Shown here piece by piece: positions 246 to 8,493 of a stretch of DNA of 10,912 nt. A program made the translations under genes and the position numbers. The DNA comes from an uncultured bacterium (lineage in GTDB: Bacteria; Patescibacteriota; Minisyncoccia; Phycocordibacterales; UBA9973): contig CAIJZW010000078.1 in assembly GCA_903825265.1 (NCBI GenBank), positions 1-10,912 on the forward strand. The letters are read 5' to 3'. The notes below the pieces were generated by a model. The model searched no databases and had not been told where the DNA came from. It saw nothing but the letters and a program-made list of their open reading frames with translations. Every line of letters starts with the position of its first letter. Within the stretch, counting starts at the first letter, position 1.

Positions 246-283
246 ATTTTAAAGACGTCCAATATTAATACAAAACATACAAA

Positions 284-379
284 ACAATATTTCTCTCGGG
301 TCCGGATAAATTTCTGCTGAAATTTTCCTCATTGCTCGGGCCATCGCCCTTGCGCACGCCCCTCGAGAAAAGTTATTGT
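284..379 (-). repeat. Intergenic palindromic element, relative of the recG insert
   Basis: A 96-nt element with about 48% G+C by my count (46 of 96), set in very AT-rich flanks. Outer arms are ACAATA (284-289) and TATTGT (374-379), followed by TTTCTC pairing with GAGAAA. Inside, read on the minus strand, is a hairpin with arms GGAAAATTTC and GAAATTT-A-TCC around an AGCA loop, with one bulged A. The core, including GGCCCGAGCAATGAG, aligns with 7625-7666 in recG, including the AGCAGA..ATTTAT block. It lies 22 nt downstream of the eno stop codon and may also end eno transcription. Both it and the recG copy keep an open frame reading DGPS...N(F/L)SR(N/D)L. The repeat call rests on the two-copy comparison; the name is mine. 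Confidence 0.7.
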
Positions 380-401
380 ATATTTTATAGATATTAAACT
401 A

Positions 402-4324: not shown

Positions 4325-4362
4325 AGAGCTATGTAGATTTATATCTACATAGCTCTTTTTTT
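4325..4362 (+). terminator. Intrinsic terminator, 14-bp stem
   Basis: Arms 4325-4338 and 4343-4356 (AGAGCTATGTAGAT and complement), loop TTAT, then a run of seven T. It lies 3 nt after the stop codon of the preceding gene and insulates it from mscL. Confidence 0.88.
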
Positions 4363-5956: not shown

Positions 5957-5958
5957 TA

Positions 5959-6001
5959 AGCATACTAAAACAGCCCTATTATAGGGCTGTTTTAGTATGC
6001 T
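5959..6001. terminator. Bidirectional terminator, perfect 20-bp stem, touching the recG promoter
   Basis: Arms 5959-5978 and 5982-6001 are exact complements with a 3-nt loop TTA. The upper stem is GC-rich (CAGCCCTA/TAGGGCTG), followed by TTTT within the 3' arm. The last base of the 3' arm is the first base of the recG TATAAT box. Confidence 0.85.
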
Positions 6002-6006
6002 ATAAT
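5998..6006 (+). promoter_or_regulatory. Extended -10 (TGc-TATAAT) of recG
   Basis: TGCTATAAT, 9 nt before the ATG of recG. The TGC belongs to the terminator stem. No -35 box is recognisable because that position is inside the hairpin. Confidence 0.55.
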
Positions 6007-6015
6007 TCTTATATC

Positions 6016-8277
6016 ATGAAACTAAATGATGAGATTGAACTACATTTCCGTATTGATATAAAACAAAAAAAGGCTCTTAATAATCTTGGAATAAAAACAT
6101 TAAAAGATTTACTTTACCATTTCCCAGCACGTTATAGTGACATGAGTGAAGTTCGAAACATTAACACTCTTTCTGATGGGGAGAATGTTACTATTTTAGG
6201 AAAAATATCTAATCTAAAAACAAAGAAAGGATTCAAAAGTAAAATTCCAATGGGACAAGCTACCCTTTCTGACTTAACAGGATCCATAAATATTATATGG
6301 TTTCATCAACCATACCTAGCAAAAATGTTAAAAGATGGTAATACAGTTAGAGTAACTGGTAAAATAACAGATAGTAAAAGTTATGGACTCACTCTTGCTA
6401 ATCCAGAAATAAATAAAGAGGATGTTCTTCCTATTGATATACACGACTCTCTTTTTAACAACAAAGAGGTTCAAATACAATATGGATTTCCTATTTACAG
6501 AGAATCTTATGGTGTCACTTCAAAATGGATTTATCACGCCGTACAAAAAATACTAAAACATGATTGCGTAAAAGATATAATAGACTATATTCCAAATGAA
6601 ATTCTTAATAACTACAAATTACCAGCATTACATACTGCTCTTATTTGGATTCATATGCCACAGAAAAAAGAGCACGCAGAAATAGCTCGTAAGAGATTCG
6701 CATTTGAAGAAGTATTTTTTATACAACTCACCCGTCAACAAGAACGTAAAAAATATGAAGAAAACTTTTCATATAAATTAAAAATTCCAGAAAAAGATAT
6801 AGAAGATTTTATTTCACGATTTCCTTTTACTCCAACAAAAGCACAATCAGATACTATAGATACAATCCTAAAAGATTTCACAAAAGATAAACCAATGAGT
6901 AGGCTTATCGAAGGAGATGTGGGAAGTGGAAAAACTTTTGTCGCAGCAACAGTTGCTTATGCAGTTATCAAAAATAGACCTGAAGGTCAAAACTTTGGTA
7001 ATCTTCAAGTTGCCTATATGGCCCCAACTGAAGTATTAGCTACACAATTATTTGAGAATTTCATTCAATATTTTGAACACACAGGCATATCTGTAGCTCT
7101 TATTACAGGCTCTGGGTGCCGTAAATTCCCCAGCAAATCTGCACATTGGGAGAATGGCTCACAAGTGAAAACTTGGACTCCTATAGCTAAAAATCAGCTT
7201 TTAAAATGGATTAAAAATGGTGAAATACCTATAGTTATAGGTACTCATGCTTTAATATCAAAATCTGTAGAATTTGAAGACTTAGGACTGGTCATAATAG
7301 ATGAACAACATAGATTCGGAACAAATCAAAGAATGAAACTTGCTAAAAAAGAAGGCCATGTACCTCACTATTTATCCATGACTGCTACCCCTATTCCACG
7401 TACACTTGCTCTTACTATTTATGGAGATTTAGACTTAAGCATTATTGATCAAATGCCAAAGGGCCGTAAACAAGTTATAACAGAAATAATTCCTGAAAAT
7501 AAAAGAGAGGCTTCATATGAAAAAATTAAAAAAGAATTGGAATCTGGACGACAACTTTATGTTATTTGCCCGAAGATAGGTGAGGAGTTCGGACAAAGTG
7601 TTTTAGGAAGCCTTACGGAGGCCGACGGGCCGAGTACGAGCAAAAATCTCAGCAGAGATTTATTGCGTGCTGACGGAAATACTTTGTCAGAACTCAGAAC
7701 TGTAAATGATGAATCAAGGAGATTAAAAAAAGATATTTTTCCAGAATACAATATCGAAATAATGCACAGCAAGATGACCAAAGACAAGAAAGAAAAAGTG
7801 ATGCTTGATTTTACTAAAAAGAAAATAGATATATTAGTTTCCACTTCTGTTATAGAAGTCGGGGTGAATGTACCAAATGCTACTGTTATTATTATTGAAG
7901 GAGCAGAAAGATTTGGATTAGCACAATTACACCAACTTCGTGGACGAGTCATAAGATCAAATTATCAATCATATTGTTATTTATTTGCAGATGCAAAGAC
8001 AGACAAAACAATAGATAGACTAAAAGCTTTAACAAAAGCATCGAATGGATTTGAACTTGCAGAGTTAGACTTATCTCTTCGTGGAGCAGGACTTCTATCT
8101 GGAGATAAACAGTGGGGTATCACAGATCTTGGAATGGAAGCTATTAAAAATATTAAAATGGTGGAAGCTGCAAGAAAAGAAGCAATAAAAATGATAACCG
8201 AAGATGTTGAACTGAAATCATTCCCTCTTCTATATCAAACTCTTATATCTAAAAATTTAAAATTACATTTTGAATAA
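6016..8277 (+). CDS. recG: ATP-dependent DNA helicase RecG with an in-frame insert
   Basis: Remodels stalled replication forks and branched DNA in the cytosol. Product is 753 aa; typical RecG is about 680-700. An N-terminal wedge with OB fold (about residues 50-120, GENVTILGKISNLKT) is followed by the helicase: motif I GDVGSGKT (300-307), MAPTEVLATQ, DEQH (429-432), TATP (456-459), then domain 2 with YVICP, IMHSKM, and motif VI QLHQLRGR (637-644). The C-terminal LDLSLRGAGLL is typical. Residues about 524-560 are extra, encoded by the palindromic element at 7585-7695, in the loop after YVICP where family length varies, so the enzyme is probably still functional. It has its own leaderless-type promoter. 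A second segment, about 366-392 (CRKFPSKSAHWENGSQVKTW), also looks longer than in model RecG proteins. Confidence 0.96.
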   Translation: MKLNDEIELHFRIDIKQKKALNNLGIKTLKDLLYHFPARYSDMSEVRNINTLSDGENVTILGKISNLKTKKGFKSKIPMGQATLSDLTGSINIIWFHQPYLAKMLKDGNTVRVTGKITDSKSYGLTLANPEINKEDVLPIDIHDSLFNNKEVQIQYGFPIYRESYGVTSKWIYHAVQKILKHDCVKDIIDYIPNEILNNYKLPALHTALIWIHMPQKKEHAEIARKRFAFEEVFFIQLTRQQERKKYEENFSYKLKIPEKDIEDFISRFPFTPTKAQSDTIDTILKDFTKDKPMSRLIEGDVGSGKTFVAATVAYAVIKNRPEGQNFGNLQVAYMAPTEVLATQLFENFIQYFEHTGISVALITGSGCRKFPSKSAHWENGSQVKTWTPIAKNQLLKWIKNGEIPIVIGTHALISKSVEFEDLGLVIIDEQHRFGTNQRMKLAKKEGHVPHYLSMTATPIPRTLALTIYGDLDLSIIDQMPKGRKQVITEIIPENKREASYEKIKKELESGRQLYVICPKIGEEFGQSVLGSLTEADGPSTSKNLSRDLLRADGNTLSELRTVNDESRRLKKDIFPEYNIEIMHSKMTKDKKEKVMLDFTKKKIDILVSTSVIEVGVNVPNATVIIIEGAERFGLAQLHQLRGRVIRSNYQSYCYLFADAKTDKTIDRLKALTKASNGFELAELDLSLRGAGLLSGDKQWGITDLGMEAIKNIKMVEAARKEAIKMITEDVELKSFPLLYQTLISKNLKLHFE
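7585..7695 (+). repeat. Palindromic element inserted in frame in recG
   Basis: 111 nt, 54 of them G or C by my count, clearly richer than the flanking gene. Outer arms 7585-7604 and 7676-7695 pair over 20 positions with one mismatch (G7591 against A7689) and two G-T pairs. The centre is a hairpin GCAA-AAATCTC, loop AGCA, GAGATTT-A-TTGC, with one bulged A. A smaller hairpin GCCT/AGGC lies at about 7610-7622. The length is 37 codons with no stop in the reading frame. The 7-nt tandem CAGAACT repeats across the right edge (7688-7701). The core is related to 284-379. Confidence 0.8.
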
Positions 8278-8458: not shown

Positions 8459-8493
8459 AAACAGCCCCGCCAACGAAGTTGGCGGGGCTGTTT
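8459..8493. terminator. GC-rich bidirectional terminator, 16-bp stem
   Basis: Arms 8459-8474 and 8478-8493 (AAACAGCCCCGCCAAC and complement) with a GAA loop. It is the strongest hairpin in the window, located 12 nt past the ftsH stop codon. It ends ftsH transcripts before the tRNA-Ile promoter region. Confidence 0.85.

Follow-up and report, generated by a model that had tools for sequence, protein, structure and literature searches.

The window analyzed here, 10,912 nucleotides of contig CAIJZW010000078.1 from an uncultured bacterium of the Patescibacteriota, contains a recG gene that is interrupted, without loss of frame, by a palindromic element (Table 1). The element is 111 nt long and free of stops within a 753-codon frame and, as the preliminary description of this DNA had stated, its length is divisible by three and its edges form an inverted repeat with one mismatch and two G-T pairs, the other 17 of the 20 positions in the P1 arms being Watson-Crick pairs. 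The central hairpin with an AGCA loop noticed at that time is P3, and the G+C content, then put at about 49%, is 48.6%, compared with 32.0% in the remainder of recG. The predicted RNA fold of the element has an energy of −48 kcal/mol (z = −6.85), and none of 200 shuffles was equally stable; for positions 284 to 379, within the second copy in Table 1, the z value is −3.42 and 1 of 200 shuffles was as stable. Inverted repeats of equal quality (20-base arms, at most one mismatch and two G-T pairs, span of at most 150) occur at two places in the window, 7585 to 7695 and 5958 to 6002, and 1 of 30 dinucleotide shuffles of the window contained such a repeat. Perfect or near-perfect palindromes, almost loopless, lie at 1 to 40, 4325 to 4354, 5959 to 6001, and 8461 to 8493, some directly behind stop codons; these are probably terminators, or else they arose by the same process that generates palindromes here.

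Table 1. Features of the recG locus and of the palindromic element copies in the window
Feature	Position	Strand	Remarks
recG (host gene, 753 aa)	6016..8277	+	RecG domains; residues 523-559 form a low-confidence loop
Whole palindromic element	7585..7695	+	In frame inside recG, 37 codons; model match 7586-7699, E = 4.4e-31
Outer stem P1, left arm	7585..7604	+	Copy-specific; partner 7676-7695
Outer stem P1, right arm	7676..7695	+	Pairs with 7585-7604; co-change in 7 RecG orthologues
Hairpin P2	7614..7636	+	TAC/GTA and GGCC/GGCC pairs; GACG loop 7624-7627
Hairpin P3	7644..7661	+	AAATCTC/GAGATTT; AGCA loop 7651-7654
Second, divergent copy	271..384	-	Intergenic, 3' of a presumably enolase-like gene (402-1694, minus; our assignment from its sequence); E = 2.9e-18

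The element belongs to a dispersed family. By blastn, further copies were found in the host genome, which is incomplete (515 kb in 84 contigs), and matches were present in 18 of the 61 genomes in a sample of relatives, the host genome counted. A covariance-model search, which the preliminary description had recommended as a check, revealed many more: the model, built from 34 diverse aligned copies, gave 16 matches in the host genome, one of them the further copy already suspected at 284 to 379, and it matched at least 143 of the 147 genomes of the family and at least 42 of 379 genomes drawn across the phylum, including six of the host's own family.

All copies are organized around a core made of P2, with a GNCG-type loop, and P3, with an AGCA-type loop. 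Pairing in this core was assessed in copies found by blastn only, using the best matches at 27 of the 37 loci L001 to L037 (24 of the 27 rows distinct), with RecG orthologues L010, L011, L012, L015, and L018 and the short matches L006 to L009 and L026 left out. In these copies, 98.8% of the cells of the whole core pair and 10 of the 14 pairs have two-sided changes; the TAC/GTA and GGCC/GGCC parts of P2 pair in 98.6% and 96.9% of cells, and P3 pairs in 100%, with two-sided changes in 6 of its 7 pairs. Both sides had changed in 48 cells and one side in 3, counts that refer to sequences and not to events. The covariation score was reached by 0 of 500 shuffles and the number of pair types by 9 of 500. 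Changes from A-T to T-A are common, and the two core subtypes have a net length difference of 3 nt. In the 34-copy set, the pair count involves some circularity for P2 and P3, the hairpins by which those copies were picked, but not for P1, which was not preselected; there, 86.8% of the P1 cells are paired, with two-sided changes in 10 of 10 pairs.

The arms behave differently from the core. They are palindromic, as first described, but they are not a fixed repeat; instead, each copy has arms of its own around the conserved core, and little outer-arm sequence is common between copies. Among 91 copies, within-copy arm complementarity was 10.64 at 0 to 20 nt from the core versus 4.78 after permutation (0 of 2,000 permutations as high), 8.13 versus 4.51 at 8 to 28 nt, and 5.85 versus 4.57 at 16 to 36 nt, while at 24 to 44 nt it was not clearly above chance (P = 0.056). 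The copy specificity holds both for the 22 copies in long open frames (putative genes) and for the other 69. In the seven RecG orthologues, 116 of 126 arm pairs (92%) are Watson-Crick, compared with 80% across species.

RecG loci differ in whether they carry the insert. The closest named RecG relatives of the host come from Candidatus Nomurabacteria, and the model matches 11 of 80 named RecG loci in the loop that follows the YVICP strand, the position originally proposed for the insertion; in two further loci the match lies outside the gene. Loop lengths could be read by motif in 77 of the 80 loci (28 of 31 in an earlier RecG set). The loop is plain, with 44 to 48 residues and no element, in 59 of the 77; it has 72 to 83 residues in the 11 element-bearing loci and 52 to 77 residues without a model match in the remaining 7. 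Residues ~524 to 560 are thus absent from most homologues examined, the outcome that the preliminary description had predicted for a RecG alignment. Its estimate of about 37 added codons is right for the span of the element, but in the genus, occupied loops have 72 to 75 residues and empty ones 47 to 48, a gain of 25 to 28, so that some edge positions must replace native residues. One of the 59 short loops, that of L185, has residues resembling both element ends with the core missing and reads as a deletion remnant. At four loci (L196, L206, L218, and L245), the same loop holds a different long insertion, one to which the model has no match. Because the loop is also occupied in distant lineages, an old insertion followed by loss and repeated insertion are indistinguishable there. 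A structure model of the host RecG (20 sequences; mean pLDDT 71.6, pTM 0.55) has pLDDT values below 50 at residues 523 to 559, between a strand (513 to 517) and a helix (563 to 574), and likewise in five other short segments. Although few sequences cover the insert, the model fits a floppy, disordered loop, consistent with the earlier suggestion that the element is tolerated as a soluble surface loop.

The element also lies in frame inside unrelated genes, as had been anticipated. Among 95 copies, 26 are spanned in sense and 3 in antisense by long open frames (putative genes). A profile of 15 aligned insert peptides (mean column identity, 59%), a search that by design finds in-frame copies only, recovered further ones and gave matches in at least 70 of the 147 family genomes. 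These fall both within long open frames and in spacers, and some of those lying outside long frames include stop codons. Sense host genes, named by NCBIfam or Pfam, encode TsaD (two sites), a GlmM-type sugar phosphate mutase, a PcrA/UvrD-type helicase, Fmt, RsmA, TruB, RsmE, and DnaE, and antisense in-frame copies occur in Dus, PheT, and one TsaD; the PcrA, TruB, DusB, and PheT assignments fall below the curated cutoff. From their motifs, we take two further sense hosts to be Def and PrmC. The conserved peptide frame is unused in some in-frame copies, namely the antisense ones and that in RsmE, which is in sense but in a different frame.

Empty sites, named as support in the preliminary description, and remnant-like sites exist at RecG and elsewhere. 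In the tig-clpP spacer, 2 nt separate the matched flanks in G003 and G021, with no model match, while G000, G016, G012, and G001 have model matches with different arms, which indicates independent insertions in one spacer. Target-site duplication is not evident at tig-clpP, where the arms blur the boundaries. The same spacer of G004 and of G012 has another palindromic repeat in common, to which the model has no match (L298/L299). In tsaD, the model matches one loop in 9 of 30 fetched loci (29 parsed for the loop reading), the G015 copy being altered; by eye, this loop holds other palindromes in six more loci, the host genome included, and a remnant resembling L185 in G003. The same host loops take other palindromes too, in tsaD as well as in fmt. 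The palindrome in the tsaD of the host (L338, C50:2896-2972) is in frame and represents a second palindrome family with matches in 15 of 24 genus genomes, and in-frame palindromes without a match to the element model sit in the fmt loop of G141 and G096 (L365 and L368). Two other arrangements were seen: two copies close by in opposite orientation within one open frame (L107, tsaD of G160), and adjacent def-like and fmt genes that each carry an in-frame copy (L288, in G153).

The fmt gene shows where part of the arms may come from. The model matches inside fmt in 11 of 30 fetched loci and in L288; the flank on the right side codes for the strand that precedes A-Y-G-K, a strand common to unoccupied genes. 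In 8 of these 12 occupied genes, the left arm and the right flank are connected by an exact inverted run of 11 to 25 nt, which extends 3 to 14 nt into the native codons of that strand. The other four have a run of 6 nt or no run at all, and in unoccupied fmt it is 7 nt or less (14 genes, parsed from 19 without a match). A smaller first set gave a run in 5 of 8 occupied genes and at most 8 nt in 4 empty ones. Available parts of published accounts describe template switching as making and repairing stems (PMC8794818) and propose it for coding palindromes of nematomorph mitochondria (PMC6649704). The long runs in occupied genes, set against 7 nt or less in unoccupied ones, suggest a palindrome that template switching preserves and extends; which arm is original and which copied is our inference. 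We put the odds that stems are maintained and grow in this way at about even. Selection for structure would likewise give two-sided changes, and in four of the 12 occupied fmt genes, native codons are not repeated in inverted form (6 nt at most). A bolder version, to which we give somewhat less than even odds, is that palindromes grow from the element as from a seed, with template switching overwriting one flank with the inverted other, so that native codons in essential enzymes would be rewritten and new peptide would arise from the antisense of adjacent coding sequence. If true, a parasite would drive protein evolution across a bacterial lineage with reduced genomes.

Together, the copies throughout the genome and family, the empty sites, the in-frame host genes, and the copy-specific arms make it nearly certain that this is a mobile in-frame element family in Nomurabacteria, and the comparable selfish family postulated in the preliminary description is borne out in its dispersal, in-frame copies, and empty sites. 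For the recG locus itself, our main reading, with a probability of roughly 0.8, is that a non-autonomous selfish palindromic element sits in frame in RecG, within a permissive surface loop, and contributes about 37 disordered codons by read-through; as far as the sequence tells, the insert is apparently translated by the ribosome. The element would insert in frame into the permissive loop, moved by a transposase acting in trans, and the ribosome would read through it as some 37 extra disordered codons. During replication, template switching at the hairpin, as in quasipalindrome correction, may then keep the long outer stem near perfect and push it outward into host codons, and copies would persist only where the extra loop, or a spacer at a gene 3' end, is harmless.

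The source of mobility bears on the best-placed alternative, a REP-like element moved by a host RAYT-type Y1 transposase, which we nevertheless regard as unlikely. Y1 transposase frames of 208 to 296 aa occur in 15 of 20 genomes, neighboring element copies in the host genome are in inverted orientation, and the genomic location resembles that given for REPs in the accessible portion of PMC3733652. Against this, Y1 frames are absent from the other five genomes, G000 (78% complete) and G153, G104, G033, and G164 (each at least 94% complete), the last four having 11 to 25 matches each among the matches listed, and a copy was near just one of six fetched Y1 loci. The search for Y1 frames in the 20 genomes did not find a parent insertion sequence. 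A phage or plasmid origin was rejected, as blastn gave no match in a phage collection or a plasmid collection and the exact core pattern was not found in IMG/VR.

It is also rather improbable, if a little less so than the rivals that follow, that the element is a functional structured RNA that moves, for instance a regulator or a processing or termination signal, whose stem is under RNA selection in mRNAs and 3' untranslated regions. The strong covariation would be explained, and so would the placement of copies. Among 69 places (70 matches minus a duplicate, L038 = L001, with genes called as open frames and loci that are part of five genomes' copies), 12 are inside frames and 57 intergenic, the genes flanking the latter being convergent at 17, co-directional at 31, and divergent at 4, with 5 undecided; a gene 3' end lies within 20 nt in 32 of the 57 and a gene 5' end in 7. 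The excess of convergent over divergent settings and the nearness to 3' ends are as expected for transcribed 3' ends. However, few core cells are changed on one side, A-T to T-A changes are common, the outer arms are hardly alike between copies, and in-frame copies lie antisense in Dus, PheT, and one TsaD. Rfam had no element match at gathering scores in the window and four other loci (weak hits below gathering had E values of 3.8 to 6.6), and a known structured-RNA family was rejected on this ground.

The nearness to gene 3' ends, together with the perfect palindromes at gene ends in the window, would also suit a core that inserts at the apex of pre-existing palindromes or terminator hairpins, an idea that would explain copy-specific arms. 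We consider this improbable: the empty RecG and tig-clpP (G003 and G021) sites have no palindrome evident by eye, and for intergenic subtypes a and b, the arms are found again at separate loci. Very improbable is removal of the element before or during translation, by intron-like splicing or by ribosome bypassing over the hairpin, to leave a normal protein. The hairpin form and the presence in essential genes would suit it, but the spanning frames that were read stay open and keep phase, something that skipping would not demand (an argument weakened by the peptide search, which favors in-frame copies), and the stops in some matches outside long frames and the net 3-nt difference between core subtypes also speak against it. 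Finally, that the palindrome arose by chance in an ordinary, fast-evolving protein loop has next to no probability: the RecG loop is variable in general, but the same core recurs at many unrelated loci, and the dispersed copies, the folds of shuffled elements (0/200), and the shuffled windows (1/30) rule chance out.

These results matter because the element enters central enzymes of replication, translation, and tRNA modification while its palindromes are maintained. Since occupied sites are numerous and close relatives with empty sites exist, comparison can address two long-standing questions: the entry of selfish DNA into coding sequence without host death, and the origin and persistence of long perfect stems. 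Among the papers listed for such elements in Nomurabacteria, Parcubacteria, or Patescibacteria and for coding palindromes, judged by titles and the opening parts of abstracts and mostly from outside subscription journals, none describes the family.

Among known systems, short non-autonomous MITEs resemble the element in their inverted ends, their dispersal, and a length too short for a transposase gene, but here the Y1 search did not yield a parent insertion sequence, and at tig-clpP, with its boundaries blurred by the arms, a target duplication is not evident. REPs (GTAG/CGTC), according to the accessible portion of PMC3733652, are small palindromes of 20 to 40 bp found mostly between convergent or co-directional genes, some of them intragenic and some in inverted pairs. 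The element shares these habits, but it is about 110 to 150 bp with a junction of stems rather than a 20- to 40-bp hairpin, a comparison of size and junction; Y1 frames occur in 15 of 20 genomes, with a copy near one of six fetched Y1 loci. Nematomorph mitochondria have perfect inverted repeats in coding sequence whose arms evolve together (PMC6649704), and the likeness extends to both traits; unlike them, the present case is a bacterial family of in-frame inserts with a conserved mobile core, a feature that the available part of that source does not describe.

The closest parallel is with the Rickettsia palindromic elements (RPE), found in Wolbachia too, the two genera from which, in the accessible text of PMC10969869 and PMC3767692, protein-coding palindromes in bacteria are chiefly known. 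These are palindromes of 100 to 150 bp lying in frame in unrelated genes, with a conserved peptide and solvent-exposed inserts, and different groups may occupy nearly one site in orthologues. The Nomurabacteria element is likewise a dispersed palindrome of about 100 to 150 bp, in frame in unrelated protein genes with orthologues empty elsewhere, and encodes a conserved peptide; DnaE and PheT are targets in both, as far as those texts go. It thus appears to work like an RPE, a likeness of form and habit drawn from descriptions and not a claim of membership. The differences are that its host belongs to another phylum, that it has a conserved two-hairpin core, and that its arms are kept and lengthened, co-changing in the RecG orthologues, whereas RPE are said, in the part of PMC6649704 available, to lose repeat identity over time. 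In sum, this is apparently a separate palindrome system, near universal in one Patescibacteria family, and what sets it apart from the RPE is the combination of a conserved core with maintained, partly host-derived arms in another phylum.
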